A DNA stretch of 8,102 nucleotides from Chloroflexota bacterium. Its GTDB lineage: Bacteria; Chloroflexota; UBA6077; CF-72. The DNA lies in assembly GCA_019247135.1 (NCBI GenBank), contig JAFAPL010000351.1:1-8102 (forward strand), read 5' to 3'. Under the pieces are notes generated by a model. That model was given only the letters and a program-made list of their open reading frames with translations. It did not search any database and was not told where the DNA came from. Shown here one piece after another: positions 521 through 8,078 of this stretch (position 1 is the stretch's first letter; every line of letters begins with the position of its first letter). Both the position numbers and the translations under genes were made by a program.

Positions 521-3103
521 ATGGCAGTTTCCGCCCCAACGACACGGCCCTGGAGTCCCGGCCGCGTTCCAAATCGACTCCTCCTGCTTGGCCTGGCGCT
601 GGCCGTGGCGCTCGGGGGTTCGTACTTCGTGCTCGCGAAGCCGTTCACCTCGAACCAGCAACTGCCCACGTATCAGACGGCAGCCGTCGCTCAAGGCAAC
701 CTGCAGGTGACAGTCAGTGCAACTGGACCAATCACTAGCTCCAGCAGCGTGCCTCTGACGTTCAAGTCATCCGGTCAGTTGACCGAGATCGACGTCGCCG
801 TGGGCCAGCAGGTCCAGGCCGGCGACGTGCTGGCCAGAGAGAATACGTCCGATCTGCAAACCGCGGTGGATCAAGCTCAAGCCAACCTGAGCCAGCAGCA
901 AGCCAACCTGGCTAAACTGCAGGCAGGCGCGACACCGCAGGCCGTAGCAGCGGCCGAGGCGCAGGTCGCGGCGGCACAGACGACGCTCGACAACGCGCAA
1001 AAGAGCCTCGCGTCAGCAGAGGCCAACGCGAACACGAGCGTTCAGTCGTCCCAAGCCGACCTCAATACGGCTCAGGTGACCCTGGCCAACGATCAGCAGG
1101 CGCTCCAGAACGCGCAAGCGCAGGCACAGGCCGCGCTCCAGGCCGACCAGACCGCGCTGGCGAACGCGCAGCAGAGCTACCAGCAACAGCTGCAAACGTT
1201 CCAGGCGAACTGGGGACAGGTCCAGGCGCAACTGAATCAGGACCAGCTCGCGGTCCAGAACGCGCAGAAAGTTCTGGACGATGCCAACGCCTCGCTCGCC
1301 GCGAACCAGAAGTCGGTGGATCAGGCGAATCAGGCAGACGCGGTAACCGTCCAGAACGCACAAGATTCGCTGAACAACGCCCAGGCGGCGTTGTCAGCCG
1401 CGCAGCAAGGCAACACTGCTGGCATTCAGGCTGACCAGGTCGCTCTGCAGAACGCGAAGAACAATCTGGCCAACGCTCAGACTGCTCTGGCCAACGCGCA
1501 GGCGGTCGCGTCCGCGAGCAATAACGTCGCCTCCAAGCAGGTGTCGCAGGCCGAGCAGGGCCCCACATCGACTTCGGCCGGGGTCGGAACTGCCAAGGCG
1601 CAGCAAACCCTCACCCAGACACAGAATGATTCCTCGGTCGCGAGCGCTCAGGCCAACGTGACCACGGCTCAGAACGCGGTCAATACGGCGGAGGCGGCCC
1701 TCAACACGGACCAGGCCAAGAATCAGTCGAGCCTGGTGTCCGCGCAGTCGCAGGTGACGAGCGCGCAGAACACGCTCAAGACCGCGCAGGCACAACAGGC
1801 CTCGGATGCGGCCAAGAACCAGCAGAGCATCGTATCGGCGCAATCGCCGGTCACGACTGCTCAGAACAGCCTGGATGCAGCCAGGGCGACACTCGCGTCC
1901 GATCAGGCGAAGAACCAGCAAGGTCTCGATTCGGCCAAGGCGACGGTCGACCAGGCCAACAGCGCCGTGCTTACGGCTCAGGACACGTTGAACAACGACC
2001 AGACCAAACAGCAGGGCACCATTCAGCAGGCCCAGAGCCAGGTCGATCAGGCGCAGTCAGCGCTCGACAAGTCGAACGCGGCGCTCGCCAATACGCAGGC
2101 GCAGCAGCAGCAATCGATCCAGACAGCTCAGAATACGGTCGCCTCGTCGCAGGCCGCGCTGCAGAGCCAGCAGGCGACAGCCGCGCAAAACACGGCTCCT
2201 TCGACGCAGCAAGACATCGACGCCGCGGCTGCCCAGGTCGCGAACTCGCAAGCGGCGCTCCAGACGGCTCAGGCCAACCTGCAGGCGGCGTACCTCATCG
2301 CGCCCAGTGATGGCACGGTGGCCAGCATCAACGGTTCGGTGGGTCAATGGATCAACGGCGGTGCGACGAGCTCGACGTCTTCGACGAGCGCCAGCAGCTC
2401 CACCAGCACCACGTCTGCCAGCGGCTTCATCACGCTGACCGACCTCTCGACCCCGCAGGTGAGCGCAGCCGTGAGCGAAGCGGACATCGGCAAGGTGCAG
2501 CCTGGGCAGAAGGTGAACTTCACCGTGACCGCCTACCCGAGCCAGACATTCACCGGCACAGTCGCGGCGATCGTGCCCGCGGGAACCACGACCTCCAACG
2601 TGGTGACGTATACGGTCCTGATCACCGTCGATCCGACGAACGTGCAGCTCCTGCCGAGCATGACGGCAACCGTCACGATCATCACGGAGGAAGACGACAG
2701 CGCGGTCCTGGTGCCAAACTCGGCGATCTCGTACGCGCAGACGTCCGGTGGCTCGCAGGCAGCCAACGCCAGTGGCAGCTCGGTCTTCGTGATGCGCAAC
2801 GCGGCGCCGGTCCGCGTGCCAGTCCAGCTGGGCAGCACGGACGGGTCGGACACGGTGGTGCTGAGCGGGCTGAGGCCTGGTGATCAGGTGGTCACCGGCA
2901 TCAGCTCGAGCGCCAAGGGTTCATCGTCGTCGTCGTCGAGCGGATCGAGCATCTTCGGGTTCGGCGGTCCTGGTGGCGGCGGCGGCAACAACACCCGCAC
3001 CGGTGGGCAGCAGCAACAGCAGCAGAGCGGTCAGGCTCGGCAGACCGGTGGTGCTGCACCCGCGGGTGGTGCACCGGCCGGCGGTCCCGCTCCGGCGCCA
3101 TAA
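521..3103 (+). CDS. HlyD/MacA-like adaptor protein with a giant coiled-coil hairpin
   Basis: Membrane-anchored adaptor (membrane fusion protein) of an ABC exporter, probably working with the permease that follows 12 bp downstream. Visible order: short cytoplasmic N-terminus; one membrane anchor at about residues 20-39 (LLLLGLALAVALGGSYFVLA); first half of a lipoyl-like domain around 70-107 (GQLTEIDVAVGQQVQAGDVL); an Ala/Gln/Asn-rich coiled coil at about 109-592; second lipoyl half at about 591-614 (APSDGTVASINGSVGQWING); a Ser/Thr-only insert at about 616-634; beta-barrel at about 639-725; membrane-proximal domain with GLRPGDQVVTG; and a Ser/Gly/Gln/Pro low-complexity tail from about 798. At 860 aa it is more than twice the length of E. 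coli MacA (371 aa), and nearly all the excess is coiled coil. A Gly/Pro break at 347-356 sits at its midpoint. The ATG at 521 has only a weak ribosome-binding site. The family is clear; the exported substrate is not. Confidence 0.9.
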   Translation: MAVSAPTTRPWSPGRVPNRLLLLGLALAVALGGSYFVLAKPFTSNQQLPTYQTAAVAQGNLQVTVSATGPITSSSSVPLTFKSSGQLTEIDVAVGQQVQAGDVLARENTSDLQTAVDQAQANLSQQQANLAKLQAGATPQAVAAAEAQVAAAQTTLDNAQKSLASAEANANTSVQSSQADLNTAQVTLANDQQALQNAQAQAQAALQADQTALANAQQSYQQQLQTFQANWGQVQAQLNQDQLAVQNAQKVLDDANASLAANQKSVDQANQADAVTVQNAQDSLNNAQAALSAAQQGNTAGIQADQVALQNAKNNLANAQTALANAQAVASASNNVASKQVSQAEQGPTSTSAGVGTAKAQQTLTQTQNDSSVASAQANVTTAQNAVNTAEAALNTDQAKNQSSLVSAQSQVTSAQNTLKTAQAQQASDAAKNQQSIVSAQSPVTTAQNSLDAARATLASDQAKNQQGLDSAKATVDQANSAVLTAQDTLNNDQTKQQGTIQQAQSQVDQAQSALDKSNAALANTQAQQQQSIQTAQNTVASSQAALQSQQATAAQNTAPSTQQDIDAAAAQVANSQAALQTAQANLQAAYLIAPSDGTVASINGSVGQWINGGATSSTSSTSASSSTSTTSASGFITLTDLSTPQVSAAVSEADIGKVQPGQKVNFTVTAYPSQTFTGTVAAIVPAGTTTSNVVTYTVLITVDPTNVQLLPSMTATVTIITEEDDSAVLVPNSAISYAQTSGGSQAANASGSSVFVMRNAAPVRVPVQLGSTDGSDTVVLSGLRPGDQVVTGISSSAKGSSSSSSSGSSIFGFGGPGGGGGNNTRTGGQQQQQQSGQARQTGGAAPAGGAPAGGPAPAP
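1619..2194 (+). repeat. Six tandem 96-bp units coding for 32-residue coiled-coil repeats
   Basis: Within the adaptor gene, residues 367-558 divide into six consecutive 32-residue units with no gaps, starting at residues 367, 399, 431, 463, 495 and 527. Units 2-4 begin AKNQ, unit 5 TKQQ and unit 6 AQQQ. Each unit has hydrophobic residues at positions 7, 14, 21 and usually 28, with Ala mostly at 10 and 17. The core spacing is therefore 7-7-7-11, three heptads plus one hendecad, so 32 residues make nine helical turns. Unit 3 carries a proline (Pro443) where units 2 and 5 have Gln. The units are diverged at DNA level, so the expansion is probably old. Confidence 0.8.
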
Positions 3104-3115: not shown

Positions 3116-4459
3116 GTGAGCTCCCTCGCCGTTCAAGACGCACCAGTCGTCGCCGTGGCGCCCGTCGAAAGCGCACCAGCAGCTTCTGAGAACGATCCAT
3201 TCGGACTGCTAGCTCAGGTCCCGCCGCAAGGACGCGGCGGGCCGCGGGTTCTGCAGACCATCCCTTCCGCGCTCGGTGCGCTGCGCGCCAACAAGGGCCG
3301 CAGCCTCCTGACAACACTCGGCATCATCATCGGCGTCGCCGCCGTGATCGCGATCGTCGCGCTCGGTGAAGGCGCCAGCGCGTCGGTGAGCAATCAGCTC
3401 TCCGGACTCGGAACGAATCTTTTGACCATCAGTCCAGGCAGCACATCCTCAGGTGGCGCGAGGACCGGAGCCGGCAACGCCACGACGCTGAAAGCCGCCG
3501 ATGCGGACACGATCGCGCAGAAAGTGCCCGGATTGAGCGGAGTCAGCCCCGTCGTTGGAGGTAGCGCTCAGGTGATCGCCGGGAATCAGAACTGGTCTAC
3601 ACGTATCCAGGGCGTCACTCCACCGTACCTGACCATCGAGGACTGGACCATCGCCCAGGGGAGCGCCTTCACGACCCAGGACAACACGCAGTCCAACAAC
3701 GTGGCCGTACTGGGCACCACCGTGGTCAGCAACCTGTTCCCGAACGGCCAGTCGCCGATTGGGCAGACGATTCGCATTCGCAATGTGCCGTTCACCGTCA
3801 TCGGCGTGCTGCAGAGCAAAGGCAGCGGTCCAGGCGGCGACCAGGACGACACGGTGCTGGTCCCATTCCAGACTGCGCAGGTACGCCTGTTCGGCTCCAG
3901 CAATATCAGTCAGATCGTGGTTCAGGTGAGCGACGCCACCCAGATGGATTCGGCGACCACTCAGATCCAGACCCTGCTGCGCGAGCAGCACCGCTTGACC
4001 ACCAGGCAGGCAGACGATTTCACGATTCGCAACAACAACGACATCATCTCGCGTGTCTCCAGCGTGAGCACGACCATGACCATGCTGCTAGGTGGGGTCG
4101 CCGCGGTCTCACTGGTCGTCGGCGGCATCGGCATCATGAACATCATGCTCGTGTCCGTCACCGAACGGACGCGTGAGATCGGGATCCGCCTGGCGATTGG
4201 CGCTCAGCCGCGGGACGTGCTGGCGCAGTTTCTCGTGGAGGCGGTGGTGTTGTCGGTGCTGGGCGGAGTAGTCGGCATCATGGTCGGTTCGGGTGTGGCC
4301 CTGGTGTTGCCCATGGTTGCCGGCTGGGCGACGGTTGTGCCGTGGAATGCGATCGTCCTCTCGTTCGGAGTTTCGGCTGCGATCGGGATGTTCTTCGGCA
4401 TTTATCCCGCGCGCAAGGCCTCGCAGTTGGATCCGATCGTCGCCTTGAGGTACGAGTAA
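3116..4459 (+). CDS. MacB-type ABC transporter permease
   Basis: Inner-membrane subunit of a MacB/FtsX-like (type VII) ABC system. These proteins couple cytoplasmic ATP hydrolysis to movement of an extracytoplasmic domain, driving export or mechanotransmission rather than moving substrate through a membrane channel. Visible order in 447 aa: a Pro/Ala-rich N-terminal extension of about 50 residues; the family motif ALRANKGRSLLTTLGIIIGV (56-75) leading into TM1 (about 64-84); an extracytoplasmic MacB core domain (about 86-322); TM2 (about 323-347); the coupling segment VTERTREIGIRLAIGA (348-363); TM3 (about 375-399); TM4 (about 411-430); and the terminal motif YPARKASQLDPIVALRYE. It has no fused ATPase domain, unlike E. 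coli MacB, so it needs a separate ATPase; the gene at 6120-6932 is the obvious candidate. The GTG start is fixed by the preceding AGGAGG. Substrate unknown. Confidence 0.92.
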   Translation: MSSLAVQDAPVVAVAPVESAPAASENDPFGLLAQVPPQGRGGPRVLQTIPSALGALRANKGRSLLTTLGIIIGVAAVIAIVALGEGASASVSNQLSGLGTNLLTISPGSTSSGGARTGAGNATTLKAADADTIAQKVPGLSGVSPVVGGSAQVIAGNQNWSTRIQGVTPPYLTIEDWTIAQGSAFTTQDNTQSNNVAVLGTTVVSNLFPNGQSPIGQTIRIRNVPFTVIGVLQSKGSGPGGDQDDTVLVPFQTAQVRLFGSSNISQIVVQVSDATQMDSATTQIQTLLREQHRLTTRQADDFTIRNNNDIISRVSSVSTTMTMLLGGVAAVSLVVGGIGIMNIMLVSVTERTREIGIRLAIGAQPRDVLAQFLVEAVVLSVLGGVVGIMVGSGVALVLPMVAGWATVVPWNAIVLSFGVSAAIGMFFGIYPARKASQLDPIVALRYE

Positions 4460-4472
4460 GAGTCTTCGAGTC

Positions 4473-4901
4473 TTAGAAGATCACGCCTTTGACGAAGATC
4501 ACGCAGCCGTACGGGCGGGCCTCAGTGGTGGCCACCACCGCGAAGGCCCGCTTCGCACGCTCGTAGAATGCGAATCGCTCCACACGCTCAACCGCGATCG
4601 TGCGCGCTTCGATGCGCTGTGCGATCTCGAGCACGTCGCGCTGCACGTCGGGCACTTCCGACGGCTTGCCTACGACTTGCATTGCGGCGACAGGCTGTTC
4701 GACGAACGTATCCAGTGGCAGCAAGGACAGAATGGCCGAAGCGGCGGTGGGCAAATCGCAGCCTTCCAGTCGTACGAGTTTGTGCGCGGTGGACACGGCG
4801 GGAAAATTCGCATCCACCAGCGCTATCTCATCGCCATGCCCCATTTGCGCCAGCACGTACAGCAATTCAGGCGATAACAGGCGATTCAAGCCTTTCAGCA
4901 T
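4473..4901 (-). CDS. fucU: FucU/RbsD-family sugar mutarotase (probable L-fucose mutarotase)
   Basis: Cytoplasmic enzyme expected to interconvert the alpha and beta anomers of L-fucose (or a related sugar) ahead of catabolism. The 142-aa length is typical of FucU. Family features seen: N-terminal LLSPELLYVLAQMGHGDEIA with the conserved His22; DANFPA at 30-35; LLPLDTF in the middle; PVAAMQVV at 70-77; and a C-terminal FYERAKRAFAVVATTEARPY block with Tyr113, Arg116 and Tyr131. FucU is favoured over RbsD because of the VDANFPA and FYERAKRAF blocks. The ATG at 4901 overlaps the stop of the upstream dehydrogenase gene (ATGCTGA), so the two are translationally coupled. The same frame stays open upstream to 5057, but that part lies wholly inside the dehydrogenase gene. 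The gene ends 13 bp from the convergent permease stop. Confidence 0.87.
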   Translation of the reverse strand: MLKGLNRLLSPELLYVLAQMGHGDEIALVDANFPAVSTAHKLVRLEGCDLPTAASAILSLLPLDTFVEQPVAAMQVVGKPSEVPDVQRDVLEIAQRIEARTIAVERVERFAFYERAKRAFAVVATTEARPYGCVIFVKGVIF

Positions 4902-6025
4902 CCACGTACCGCCGTGCGATCGATTGCCGCCAGGGTCGGCAGTCCGAGCAACGCCTGGGCGCGGTCGATCTCGGCGCTCAGAATGGTCAGCGCGCGTTCG
5001 ACTCCAGGCTGCCCCGCCGCACCCAATCCATAGAGGTACGGGCGACCGATCATGCACGCCCGTGCACCCAGCGCGATCGCCTTCACCGCATCCGTTCCGC
5101 GTCGCACGCCGCCATCCAGGATCAATTCGACCCGACCCCCCACCGCGTCAGCGATTTCGGGCAGCACTTCAATTGCCGACGGCAATCCGTCCAACTGACG
5201 GCCTCCATGGTTCGAGACCACGAGACCGTCGACGCCGTAGTCCACGGCGCGGCACGCATCTTCGGTCGACATGATGCCTTTGAGCAGCAGGGGGCCAGAC
5301 CAGATCGAGCGGAACCACGCCAGGTCGTCCCAGCTGACTGTTGGATCAAATTGACTGTTGATGTACGGTCCGAGTGCGAGCGGTCCAGTTGGTTGTGAGG
5401 GTCGCGCGACGTTCACGAAATCGACGCGCGGATTCCGCAGCATGCCGGCCCACCAGCCGATCTTCTGGACCGTATTCAGCGCGTTGCGCACGGTGATTCG
5501 CGGTGGAATCGTGGCTCCGTTGCGCAGGTCGCGTTCGCGCTGGCCGAGTACGGGAACGTCAACGGTCAGGACCATGGCGCGATAACCGGCGGCCGACGCG
5601 CGTTCGACCAGTGAGCGGGTCAGCTCACGGTCACGCCAGACGTACAGCTGGAACCAGTGTGGGCCGGGCGCGTCGCGCATGACCTCTTCAATGGTCACCG
5701 CGGACATCGAGCTCAAGGTGAAGATGCTTCCACACGCGACCGCCGCTCGCGCGGCGAGCAGCTCCCCACGTGGCGCAGCCATACCGCACAGGCCCGTGGG
5801 GGCCAGAATCAGCGGCGTTTTCAGCGGCTGTCCAAGAACGGTGGTCGACTGATCGCGTTTGCCCGTGTCGACCAGGACGCGAGGGCGGAACGTGAGCCTC
5901 GCGAACGCAGCGTGATTGCGACGCAGGGTGTACTCGTCTTCGGCACCCCCGTCGATGAAGTCGAACACGGCGCGTGGGAGACGGCGGCGCGCGCGGCGTC
6001 GCAAGTCGTCGATGTTGATCAGCAT
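4895..6025 (-). CDS. lldD: FMN-dependent L-lactate/alpha-hydroxy-acid dehydrogenase
   Basis: Flavoenzyme of the LldD/glycolate-oxidase family, oxidising an L-2-hydroxy acid (probably L-lactate) to the 2-keto acid (pyruvate). Full length at 376 aa, a single TIM-barrel. Seen: LPRAVFDFIDGGAEDEYTLRRN near the N-terminus; LAPTGLCGM (74-82); WFQLYVW with Gln126 and Tyr128; LTVDVPVLGQRERD with Arg163; Lys249; the active-site block SNHGGRQLDG with catalytic His273 and Arg276; and the FMN-phosphate segment LDGGVRRGTD (303-312). The long membrane-binding loop insertion of E. coli LldD cannot be judged by eye. One substitution stands out: the substrate-contacting Tyr24 of spinach glycolate oxidase and E. 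coli LldD aligns with Phe23 here. Start ATG at 6025 has GAAGGG upstream with an 8-nt spacer. It is the first gene of a two-gene unit with fucU. Exact hydroxy-acid specificity is inferred. Confidence 0.9.
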   Translation of the reverse strand: MLINIDDLRRRARRRLPRAVFDFIDGGAEDEYTLRRNHAAFARLTFRPRVLVDTGKRDQSTTVLGQPLKTPLILAPTGLCGMAAPRGELLAARAAVACGSIFTLSSMSAVTIEEVMRDAPGPHWFQLYVWRDRELTRSLVERASAAGYRAMVLTVDVPVLGQRERDLRNGATIPPRITVRNALNTVQKIGWWAGMLRNPRVDFVNVARPSQPTGPLALGPYINSQFDPTVSWDDLAWFRSIWSGPLLLKGIMSTEDACRAVDYGVDGLVVSNHGGRQLDGLPSAIEVLPEIADAVGGRVELILDGGVRRGTDAVKAIALGARACMIGRPYLYGLGAAGQPGVERALTILSAEIDRAQALLGLPTLAAIDRTAVRGC

Positions 6026-6119: not shown

Positions 6120-6932
6120 ATGAACAACCCACTCCAGCTTCGCACGAATGGACACGTACGCCGCACTCCGGAGACGGAGCACCCGGCCGTCATCCAGGTC
6201 ACTGACCTGGTCAAGGACTACAGTCGCGGCGACAATGTCGTGCACGCGCTGCGTTCGGTGTCGTTGCGCGTCAACAAAGGCGAGTTCGTCGCGGTCATGG
6301 GTCCGTCCGGGTCAGGCAAGTCCACCTTCATGAACCTGATCGGCTGTCTCGACCGTCCGACCAGCGGCTCGTACGCCCTGGACGGAGTCGAAGTGACGCG
6401 CCTGAACAATACCCGTCTCGCCGAGCTGCGTGGGACGAAGATCGGCTTCATCTTCCAGGGCTTTCTGCTGTTGCCGCGCATGAACGCTCTCGAGAACGTC
6501 ATGCTGCCGATGGTGTACGCCGGGGTCCCCGTCCAGATTCGGGAGCAGCGCGCCCGCGTGGCACTCGACGCGGTGGGACTTGGCCCGCGGGCCAACCACC
6601 GTCCCAACGAGCTGTCAGGTGGTCAGCAACAGCGCGTGGCGATCGCGCGTGCGCTGGTCAATGCACCGACGATGATCCTGGCGGATGAGCCGACGGGCAA
6701 CCTCGATTCTCGCACGAGTGTTGAAATCATGGCGATTCTGCAGAGACTCAATCAGGCGGGTGCGACAATCGTGCTCGTGACGCACGAGCCGGATATCGCC
6801 ACGTATTGCTCGCGCACCGTGGTCTTCAAAGACGGCGTTGTGCTCTCCGATGCTCAGAACCAGAAGGTCGTCTCGGCGGCCGCAACCCTCGCGGGCTGGC
6901 CACCAAGCGATGACGAAGAACAGGCCGCTTAA
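6120..6932 (+). CDS. ABC transporter ATPase, MacB/LolD type
   Basis: Cytoplasmic nucleotide-binding subunit that would power a MacB-type permease, most likely the one at 3116-4459. All ABC motifs are intact in 270 aa: Walker [10 protein letters not shown] (61-69), Q-loop Gln113 in [19 protein letters not shown], signature LSGGQ (165-169), Walker B MILADEP with catalytic Glu190, D-loop GNLDS (193-197) and switch His222. The Q-loop region ([11 protein letters not shown]) and the [12 protein letters not shown] segment are typical of the MacB/LolD/FtsE group. It has a non-conserved N-terminal extension of about 22 residues and a polar C-terminal tail of about 30 residues ending DDEEQAA. The ATG at 6120 has no recognisable Shine-Dalgarno, and no alternative in-frame start was seen nearby. 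Its stop lies 22 bp before the ATG of the secreted-protein gene, suggesting co-transcription. The family is certain; the permease partner is inferred. Confidence 0.93.
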
Positions 6933-6954: not shown

Positions 6955-7701
6955 ATGAAACGCACTCTGTATAGCGCGGTCGCGGCGGTGCTGCTTGGCG
7001 CAGCGACGGTGGTTGTGCCCTCGATCGCAAACGCGCAAGACGACGACGGACGTGTCTTTGCGGACACCGGCTACAGCGTCAGCGACGACAATATCTGGTC
7101 GTACTTCAACCAGTTTGGTGGCGTGGCGACCTTCGGCGAGCCGATCTCGCGCGAGTTCACGCTGGCCGGCCGAAACGTGCAGGTGTTCCAGAACGCGGCA
7201 TTGGCCGTACAACCGGACGGCTCGGTCCAACCACTCCAACTGAGCGACCCGGGCCTGGTGCCCTACACGAAACTGAACGGCCTGACGCTGCCGGCGTCTG
7301 ATCAGGCCATCGCCTTCGTCGCGCCGAGTCCGGACCAGCCGAACTATGACGCGCGATTGCAGGTGTATGTGCAGGCCACCGTGCCGGATACGTGGAACGG
7401 CCAGCACGTCGGCTTCTACTCGACGTTCGTCAATGACGGCGGGGCGGCCGTGTGGGGCTTACCGGTTTCCACCCCGGCTGCTGATCCGAACAATCCGAGC
7501 TTCGTGTACCAGCGTTTTCAGAACGGGGTGCTGTTCTACGACGCCTCCTCCGGAACGACCCAGGCGCTCCCGCTCGGGCAGTACCTGAAAACCATCTTGA
7601 CGGGTCAGAACGTTCCTGCTGACCTCGCCTCTGAAGCTGCTGGTGCGTCGCTGTTCGGCCAGTACCAGCACGCCGACGCGTTCGTGCCCGACGCCTCCTG
7701 A
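6955..7701 (+). CDS. Secreted protein with two LGFP-like repeats
   Basis: Predicted exported protein of 248 aa; biochemical function unknown. A clear Sec signal peptide is visible: basic MKRT, a hydrophobic core to about residue 21, then SIANA followed by QDDDG, with likely cleavage after Ala27. The mature part has two related blocks. The first has GGVATFGEPIS (55-65) then VQVFQNAAL (75-83). The second has GGAAVWGLPVS (162-172) then YQRFQNGVL (185-193). This GG-x3-(F/W)-G-x-P-(I/V)-S plus Q-x-F-(Q/E) pattern resembles LGFP-type repeats and is frequent in Chloroflexota secreted proteins, where a cell-wall or surface role is suspected. There is no lipobox, sortase motif or C-terminal membrane anchor. 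The frame is open further upstream inside the ATPase gene, but the signal peptide and AGGAG fix the start near 6955. It sits 22 bp after the ATPase, so the exporter may act on or near it (inference). Confidence 0.82.
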   Translation: MKRTLYSAVAAVLLGAATVVVPSIANAQDDDGRVFADTGYSVSDDNIWSYFNQFGGVATFGEPISREFTLAGRNVQVFQNAALAVQPDGSVQPLQLSDPGLVPYTKLNGLTLPASDQAIAFVAPSPDQPNYDARLQVYVQATVPDTWNGQHVGFYSTFVNDGGAAVWGLPVSTPAADPNNPSFVYQRFQNGVLFYDASSGTTQALPLGQYLKTILTGQNVPADLASEAAGASLFGQYQHADAFVPDAS

Positions 7702-7728: not shown

Positions 7729-7815
7729 CGCTGCGGCAACCCGGAGGGTTCCAGGGGGTACCACCCCCCTGGTACCCCTCGGACAGGTCGAGCGGCAGCG
7801 TGCCAATGAAACCTT
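7729..7815. repeat. Palindromic repeat unit 1 (subtype A)
   Basis: 87 bp. The main dyad has arms CCAGGGGG (7751-7758) and CCCCCTGG (7765-7772). The second dyad is GACAGGTC (7782-7789), flanked by CTCG/CGAG. The outer ends CGCTGC (7729-7734) and GCAGCG (7795-7800) are complementary, so the whole unit could fold into one long stem. Confidence 0.75.
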
Positions 7816-7904
7816 CGCTGCGGCACGCCGGGGGCTTCTCCAGGGGTACTACTCCCTGGGTACCCTACTGACATGTCGAGCGCCAACGTGCCAGTGAGAC
7901 CTTG
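7816..7904. repeat. Palindromic repeat unit 2 (subtype B)
   Basis: 89 bp, the most diverged copy. The main dyad at 7840-7859 has one bulge. The second dyad is a perfect GACATGTC (7870-7877), but the flanking CTCG arm of subtype A is changed to CTAC. The outer pairing shifts to GGCAC (7822-7826) with GTGCC (7888-7892). Confidence 0.7.
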
Positions 7905-7991
7905 CGCTAGGGCACACCGGGAGGGTTCCAGGGGTACTACCCCCTGGGTACCCTACTGACATGTCGAGCGCCAGCGTGCCAATCCAACCTT
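7905..7991. repeat. Palindromic repeat unit 3 (subtype B)
   Basis: 87 bp. The main dyad spans 7928-7947 with four G facing five C. GACATGTC is at 7958-7965. It shares the CCCTACTGACATGTCGAGCG block with unit 2. The outer pairing is again GGCAC (7911-7915) with GTGCC (7976-7980). Confidence 0.75.
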
Positions 7992-8078
7992 CGCTGCGGC
8001 AACCCGGAGGGTTCCAGGGGGTACTACCCCCTGGGTACCCCTCGGACAGGTCGAGCGGCAGCGCGCCAGTAAAACTCC
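7992..8078. repeat. Palindromic repeat unit 4 (subtype A)
   Basis: 87 bp. It carries the most perfect main dyad: ten-base arms CCAGGGGGTA (8014-8023) and TACCCCCTGG (8025-8034) around a single C, extendable by GGGT/ACCC outside a small internal loop. GACAGGTC is at 8045-8052, with CTCG/CGAG flanks as in unit 1. The right boundary is set by length, since the A-rich linker after 8068 differs from the other units. Confidence 0.75.

Follow-up and report, generated by a model that had tools for sequence, protein, structure and literature searches.

MacA, the membrane-fusion adaptor of the Escherichia coli MacAB-TolC exporter, has a lipoyl domain split by an alpha-hairpin, a beta-barrel, a membrane-proximal domain and an N-terminal anchor, and its gene lies beside that of a MacB-type permease. 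The same features recur in an 860-residue adaptor of a Chloroflexota bacterium, encoded on an 8,102-nucleotide stretch of contig JAFAPL010000351.1 (the window, at its full length). Its hairpin, at ~35 nm by our estimate, compares with 6.7 nm given for MacA (PMC4158417), and the reading we favour, an even call in our judgement, is that the adaptor forms a duct or rod across the wall, mounted on a MacB-like exporter in a monoderm member of this phylum. Unlike MacAB-TolC, the window adaptor has no RLS motif, its ATPase is encoded by a separate gene, and it scores below the MacA equivalog cut-off. It also resembles YknX of the Bacillus YknWXYZ system and Spr0693-0695 of Streptococcus pneumoniae, which are described as TolC-less exporters combining a MacB-type permease with an adaptor of hairpin and barrel (PMC5768738, PMC4446572). 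Spr0693 differs in its dimensions, the modelled hexameric nanotube having a hairpin barrel 5.6 nm high and reaching 15.4 nm above the membrane at its apex (PMC5768738).

Longer hairpins have been described elsewhere. EmrA of Aquifex (4tko) shares with the window adaptor a long two-stranded hairpin with heptad breaks, which at 168 residues and 12.7 nm was termed exceptionally long (PMC4158417); it differs in its major facilitator superfamily partner and RLS tip (PMC13328181). According to one review, adaptors gain length through added heptads in both helices, MesE and ComB of Bacillota have large hairpins in organisms without TolC for reasons left unexplained, and such adaptors in bacteria without an outer membrane are hard to rationalize (PMC4446572). 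PrgA of Enterococcus (6z9l) is similar to the window protein in its ~40 nm coiled-coil stalk, which carries a domain far from the Gram-positive wall; it differs in not being an adaptor and in having a folded domain at its tip. A display stalk of this kind, holding the hairpin tip away from the cell with transport secondary, seems to us an improbable role for the window adaptor. As whole proteins, MesE and ComB are about half the size of the window adaptor, and they serve peptidase-type ATP-binding cassette (ABC) exporters.

Profile searches placed the window protein among export adaptors. TIGR01730 (RND_mfp) scored 112.2 bits against a cut-off of 94.9, and HlyD_3 matched residues 638-704 above its cut-off (35.4 versus 22.2 bits). 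Biotin_lipoyl_2 (residues 77-106, 27.7 bits) fell slightly below its cut-off of 29.8, and HlyD_D23 (residues 629-716, 27.4 bits) below 30. The MacA equivalog NF008606 stayed far below its cut-off (87.4 versus 342 bits), as did the SEC10/PgrA profile TIGR04320 below its own (33.3 versus 70 bits). Among the best 120 relatives, 113 have a precomputed match to PF25990, which we take to be the barrel family of YknX type; none is reported for the window protein. MacA (5nik, 9qgy and 3fpp) was the best match in both fold and sequence; in the structure comparison, long-helix proteins such as SMC, Rad50 and chemoreceptors score near adaptors, and the adaptor and PrgA rows serve as comparison, not proof. 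Profiles, AlphaFold2 and structure comparison agree on a lipoyl domain split by an alpha-hairpin with a beta-barrel after it, and the adaptor is best read as part of a MacAB/YknXYZ-like ABC exporter. Its parts are as follows.

521..3103, + strand: adaptor (membrane-fusion protein), 860 aa; TIGR01730 and HlyD_3 profiles, nearest solved structures MacA
578..631, + strand: N-terminal membrane anchor helix, residues 20-37; AlphaFold2 helix at low to moderate confidence, hydrophobic by eye
746..841, + strand: first half of the lipoyl domain, residues about 76-107; sub-cut-off Biotin_lipoyl_2 match, modelled strands
848..925, + strand: N-arm stub helix, residues 110-135; AlphaFold2
935..1546, + strand: N-arm shaft helix, residues 139-342 (204 aa); AlphaFold2, register with the C-arm
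1547..1594, + strand: tip loop, residues 343-358, site of the Cys pair of relatives; AlphaFold2, arm-length rule of relatives
1559-1588, + strand: GPTSTSAGVG in the tip loop, residues 347-356; read from the sequence
1595..2188, + strand: C-arm shaft helix, residues 359-556 (198 aa); AlphaFold2
2207..2284, + strand: C-arm stub helix, residues 563-588; AlphaFold2
2291..2905, + strand: second lipoyl half, beta-barrel and membrane-proximal strands, residues 591-795; HlyD_3, modelled strands, MacA alignment to residue 795
2912..3100, + strand: C-terminal tail, low-complexity and G/Q/P-rich, residues 798-860; predicted local distance difference test (pLDDT) below 50

The first-pass annotation had described residues 109-592 (window 845-2296) as an Ala/Gln-rich, almost proline-free insert that splits the lipoyl-like domain, and the composition agrees: the 484 residues include 121 Ala, 103 Gln and nine Gly, with just four Pro (139, 348, 443 and 560). 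The heptad-like spacing it proposed was equally evident when judged against 1000 shuffles. Autocorrelation of L/I/V/M/F/W/Y gave z = 12.5 at lag 32, 11.9 at lag 7 and 8.3 at lag 25, and the spectral peak of the whole insert reached 26.9 versus 11.6 in the largest shuffle, a periodicity beyond chance. Each arm peaked at 3.56-3.57 residues, at heights (12.0 and 15.6) just under the largest of the 1000 shuffles (13.4 and 15.8).

AlphaFold2, given 36 aligned sequences, predicted helices at residues 110-135, 139-342, 359-556 and 563-588, with a break at 343-358 around the GPTSTSAGVG motif, which had been proposed as the midpoint break and stands exactly at 347-356. The pLDDT of 10-residue blocks in the arm helices was mostly 73-93, with 57-70 beside the breaks; values below 50 were confined to residues 1-19, 32-34 and 36-46, the tip (342-359), a loop (617-632) and the tail. 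Disorder or several short bundles, which a structure prediction of the monomer might have returned, were rejected by this model of two long arms. The giant hairpin envisaged at first thus stands in its two arms, seen both in the model and in the register described below; their supposed continuity does not, each arm being a 26-residue stub and a ~200-residue shaft with breaks (136-138 and 557-562) at matching heights. Such joints are frequent in relatives: among 116 proteins with a Cys pair and inserts of at least 200 residues, Pro or Gly occupies N-arm offset 31 in 56, and a Pro stands 28 residues before the C-arm end in 43 and 27 residues before it in 33. At a helix rise of 0.15 nm per residue, the arm length gives a hairpin of about 35 nm.

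Because the predicted template-modelling score (pTM) of the adaptor model was just 0.36, and the model came without pairwise errors or coordinates, we made sequence tests that are independent of it. If two arms are antiparallel, hydrophobic residues i and j face one another at a constant i + j. The best sum for the window was 696, with 22 facing pairs over the shafts where 4.5 were expected; over the whole arms it gave 25 pairs (next best 21), and the base-anchored count was 26 versus 21. By thirds of the N-arm, 696 was the sole best sum in the first. Counted from the lipoyl base, this register is an offset of +3, which was best in 47 of 69 long-insert clusters (inserts of at least 200 residues, window included). 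After rotation of the C-arms over 20 rounds, +3 was best in a mean of 1.25 and at most four of the 69 clusters. The offset was picked from the data on which it was tested, with 91 offsets scanned, and the null of 1.25 is uncorrected for that choice; post hoc selection among 91 offsets is an unlikely explanation for 47 of 69. Overall, the hairpin topology of the adaptor is well supported.

The family set comprised 233 sequences, namely the window protein and P0001-P0232, drawn from the matches listed (for one search, the best 120 of 924). The search admitted proteins of 0.55-1.75 times the query length (473-1505 aa), so short adaptors are under-sampled and long inserts over-represented. Inserts were measurable in 225 members, P0002, P0006, P0009, P0121, P0123, P0124, P0135 and P0220 having been dropped because their lipoyl halves could not be placed. 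They form a graded series of 56-562 residues (median 276), at least 400 in 24 of the 225, and only P0031 (562) surpasses the window insert (482 by the family measure). P0031 is an 884-aa relative whose insert is free of Cys; its register is also +3. A graded series speaks against a misassembled or expanded repeat, an artefact that the Ala/Gln-rich, low-complexity sequence might invite, as might relatives with 25-residue asymmetries that may themselves be collapsed. The insert is not a tandem array at the DNA level, with one weak Tandem Repeats Finder match inside it and 26-nt copies that are 69-85% alike, and codon-position GC of the adaptor gene resembles that of neighbouring genes. Furthermore, the length is kept in the independent relative P0009 (66% identical over the aligned part), whose C-arm is complete and gap-free and whose N-arm has three additional residues in the part covered. 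We give an artefact a vanishingly small chance.

A second regularity of the family lies at the turn. Exactly two Cys occur in the insert of 138 of the 225 proteins, none in 81 (including the window) and another number in six. In 115 of the 138 neither Cys is more than 20 residues from the insert midpoint, where random placement expects 4.0, and after clustering at 70% identity of the C-terminal domain the pair was present in 53 of 108 clusters. Arm lengths measured from the pair, omitting eight two-Cys proteins whose Cys are separated by more than 35 residues, are tightly coupled: over the 53 clusters, N-arm and C-arm lengths gave r = 0.98 with a slope of 0.96, and N-arm minus C-arm was 6-10 in 47 clusters (105 of 130 proteins unclustered). 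The difference was exactly 7 in 69 of the 130, and a value of 7 on the window boundaries gives Cys-equivalent positions summing to 700, for example 345 + 355, at GPTSTSAGVG. In the AlphaFold2 model of P0125 (854 aa, 35 sequences; mean pLDDT 76.6, pTM 0.35), helices span 113-138, 142-330, 338-525 and 530-555, so that Cys330 is the final residue of the N-arm shaft and Cys340 falls in the first turn of the C-arm shaft. The pair is nearly invariant in alignment A2, whose members were chosen by hand and are mostly Cys-pair proteins. On the strength of this model, the pair is probably a disulfide clamp at the turn. P0009, the closest compared relative that covers the tip, has a Cys-less, Ser/Thr-rich turn like the window adaptor, which therefore seems part of a Cys-less branch.

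Across the 130 pairs, 5-32 residues separate the tip Cys; this variability, and the Pro/Thr-rich sequence present in some relatives, are unlike a conserved docking surface. In P0048, P0069 and P0097, the Pro/Thr-rich stretch between the Cys spans 16-30 residues and is perhaps an exposed or glycosylated loop. The eight omitted proteins have 37-138 residues between their Cys, possibly a small domain at the tip; arms are near-equal in P0134, P0139, P0141, P0193, P0201 and P0212, and unequal in P0172 and P0173. One arm alone differs by about one or two 25-residue units in P0049, P0054, P0070 and P0089, either a real asymmetry or an assembly collapse. Arm-length steps expressed as sums of 7 and 11 were not used: most larger differences fit, and three of 13 gaps did not. 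Plasmid and phage collections held no record covering 80% of the adaptor, and the matches there (the best 20 of 495, and 15 of 15) reached only adaptor C-terminal domains.

For comparison, we took as controls the 74 adaptors found in 71 of 80 MacB-type permease loci, which were retrieved through the permease with no length filter and represent many phyla by title, none of the 80 Chloroflexota. Their lipoyl halves were located with profiles trained on the family, and counts of RLS motif, charge and register use 69 of them, five inserts shorter than 60 residues being omitted. Control inserts measured 29-254 residues (median 77), with 64 of 74 on the series 63, 77, 91 ... 147, in keeping with the initial remark that adaptor hairpins are usually far shorter. 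None of the 74 contained a Cys in the insert. Their register was +3 in 30 of 69 and a heptad neighbour (+10 or +17) in 28. Charged residues make up 9.8% of the window insert versus a control mean of 25.7% and minimum of 15.6%.

The controls also differed at the hairpin tip. The RLS motif, R-x3-L-x6-S/T as defined for the hairpin tip in PMC3391258, stands close to the insert midpoint in 48 of the 69 controls versus three of 143 family proteins with inserts of at least 230 residues (P0168, P0177 and P0215). A pattern search did not find it in the window insert, whose sole Arg, residue 455, is far from the tip. Its absence supports the absence of a TolC-type tip; the first-pass annotation had raised the case of a monoderm host with no TolC. 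An ordinary diderm tripartite pump, whose tip spans a wide periplasm to dock on a TolC-like channel, would accord with membership of the adaptor family, with the RLS matches in P0168, P0177 and P0215, and with tomograms of two Chloroflexota that show a diderm-like envelope while diderm marker genes are missing (PMC13319060). It has to contend with the lack of RLS in the other 140 of the 143, window included, and with the taxonomy of the pair: all nine named and measured Cys-pair proteins (P0012, P0025, P0037, P0040, P0060, P0065, P0067, P0106 and P0127) are from Chloroflexota, a phylum reported to be without genes for the beta-barrel assembly machinery (BAM) and lipopolysaccharide (PMC13319060; PMC8871954), and whose envelope type is called debated (PMC8871954). 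We therefore rate such a pump as very improbable. Named and measured proteins without the pair were from Anaerolineae (P0171), Fodinisporobacter (P0175), Nocardioides (P0185), cyanobacteria (P0207-P0209), Solirubrobacteraceae (P0216) and Arthrobacter (P0219, P0223).

The adaptor gene is accompanied in the window by the following features.

2-478: small reading frame 5' of the adaptor, hydrophobic by eye, cut at the window start; no family match in profile searches
3116..4459, + strand: MacB-type permease with MacB_PCD and FtsX, 447 aa; profiles, GTG start after AGGAGG
4895-6025, - strand: flavin mononucleotide (FMN)-dependent L-lactate dehydrogenase-like gene between the permease and ATPase genes; profiles
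6120..6932, + strand: ABC ATPase of MacB/LolD type, 270 aa; profiles
6955..7701, + strand: secreted protein bearing the GGxxxxGxPxS motif twice; signal peptide of Sec type as judged by eye, weak LGFP match
7729-8075: 88-base tandem repeat in four copies, 3' of the secreted-protein gene

The permease starts 12 bases 3' of the adaptor stop and matches MacB_PCD at 183.8 and FtsX at 72.2 bits, as befits a MacB-type partner; in the relative P0121 both occupy a single reading frame, the adaptor part first and the permease part after it, as in the window. The ATPase gene lies 1.66 kb 3' of the permease, past the opposite-strand FMN dehydrogenase gene, so that ATPase and permease are on separate genes alongside the adaptor, as in YknWXYZ. 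Membership of the permease in the FtsX superfamily raises a mechanical lever or wall sensor, in which a rigid rod conveys ATP-driven permease strokes to a target within the wall or on its surface, without a duct. FtsEX drives coiled-coil hydrolase partners in this way. The structure comparison likewise returned coiled-coil wall proteins (Cg1735 and the SteB-RipA complex), although long helices match many things, and the variable spacing of the tip Cys would suit a tip that docks to nothing conserved. However, the adaptor retains the split lipoyl and barrel domains with which MacA builds tubes, and the profiles it matched are those of export adaptors; a lever is, in our view, unlikely.

Twenty-two bases 3' of the ATPase gene begins the gene for the secreted protein, a member of a conserved family that has no curated name (187 matches; the sole taxon name among the best 120 is Chloroflexota) whose LGFP score, 20.1 bits, is below the cut-off of 22. 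A 60%-identical homologue follows the adaptor sequence in the P0009 reading frame. Gene order makes this protein a candidate for the exporter's cargo or for a partner at the tip. Its position and that homologue would also suit a cage, seated on the external side of the membrane, in which exported polypeptides are folded or held, a role that a review proposed for the large hairpins of Gram-positive adaptors (PMC4446572). Such a cage leaves the whole-arm register and the tip Cys pair unexplained, and its putative substrate has a Sec-type signal peptide, as read by eye; we see only a slim chance of this role.

The duct or rod across the wall that we favour would be built as follows. The hairpin would be an antiparallel, nearly straight coiled coil of ~35 nm, with about 225-230 helical residues per arm, standing on the usual base. 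The Spr0693 apex height and hairpin barrel imply a base of ~10 nm, to which 34-35 nm are added to give ~44 nm. Six adaptors would probably line up, as do MacA and Spr0693, into a tube on the permease, with the tip ~44 nm from the membrane, level with or beyond the outer surface of a thick monoderm wall, and substrate would be released outside the peptidoglycan, not into TolC. The rod end would be locked, in many relatives, by two Cys at the turn that are probably joined in a disulfide. Cryo-tomograms of Tepidiforma, also of the Chloroflexota, are reported to show a 40 nm periplasm, a peptidoglycan layer of ~20 nm and a surface layer (PMC10284905). The ~44 nm reach matches the scale of that envelope, which is why we favour a trans-wall duct or rod, and a rod with so few charged residues would be suited to crossing the wall without sticking to it.

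Several observations weigh against this reading. To our knowledge there is no solved adaptor tube of 35 nm. The window register is uneven, 696 being tied with 728 in the second third of the N-arm and beaten by 735, by a single facing pair, in the third nearest the tip, and 22 of the 69 long-insert clusters prefer an offset other than +3. Packing of the window arms against each other is suggested by this register, the pTM of the model being low. In the other 25 of 130 Cys-pair proteins, arm differences run from -50 to +71, many of them ~25 or 50 residues off, which may be real or reflect repeat collapse in assembly. The window adaptor itself has no Cys pair, its turn being Ser/Thr-rich instead. 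The Tepidiforma envelope was used for scale and may not match the wall thickness of the host, the diderm-like tomograms noted above concern the same phylum, and Bacillota adaptors too have large hairpins, for which, in the review's account, no trans-wall role is known (PMC4446572).

More tentatively, and with less confidence than for the window adaptor itself, we propose that this is a Chloroflexota-centred adaptor family whose tubes or rods, up to ~42 nm in P0031, may pass through a thick monoderm wall without an outer-membrane channel, paired arm length acting as a ruler of the wall in each lineage and the tip Cys pair capping the rod. Among the literature titles listed by our searches, none treats Chloroflexota adaptors with long hairpins, subscription journals and preprints being outside their coverage. 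A single family that combines a graded range of hairpins with a tip marker and one shared register makes it testable why such large hairpins persist in adaptors of bacteria without an outer membrane. Coupled arms and a base-anchored register also provide a way, free of any structural model, to test for hairpins in adaptor sequences of low complexity. Should these adaptors indeed cross the wall, they would provide a TolC-free export route past thick peptidoglycan.

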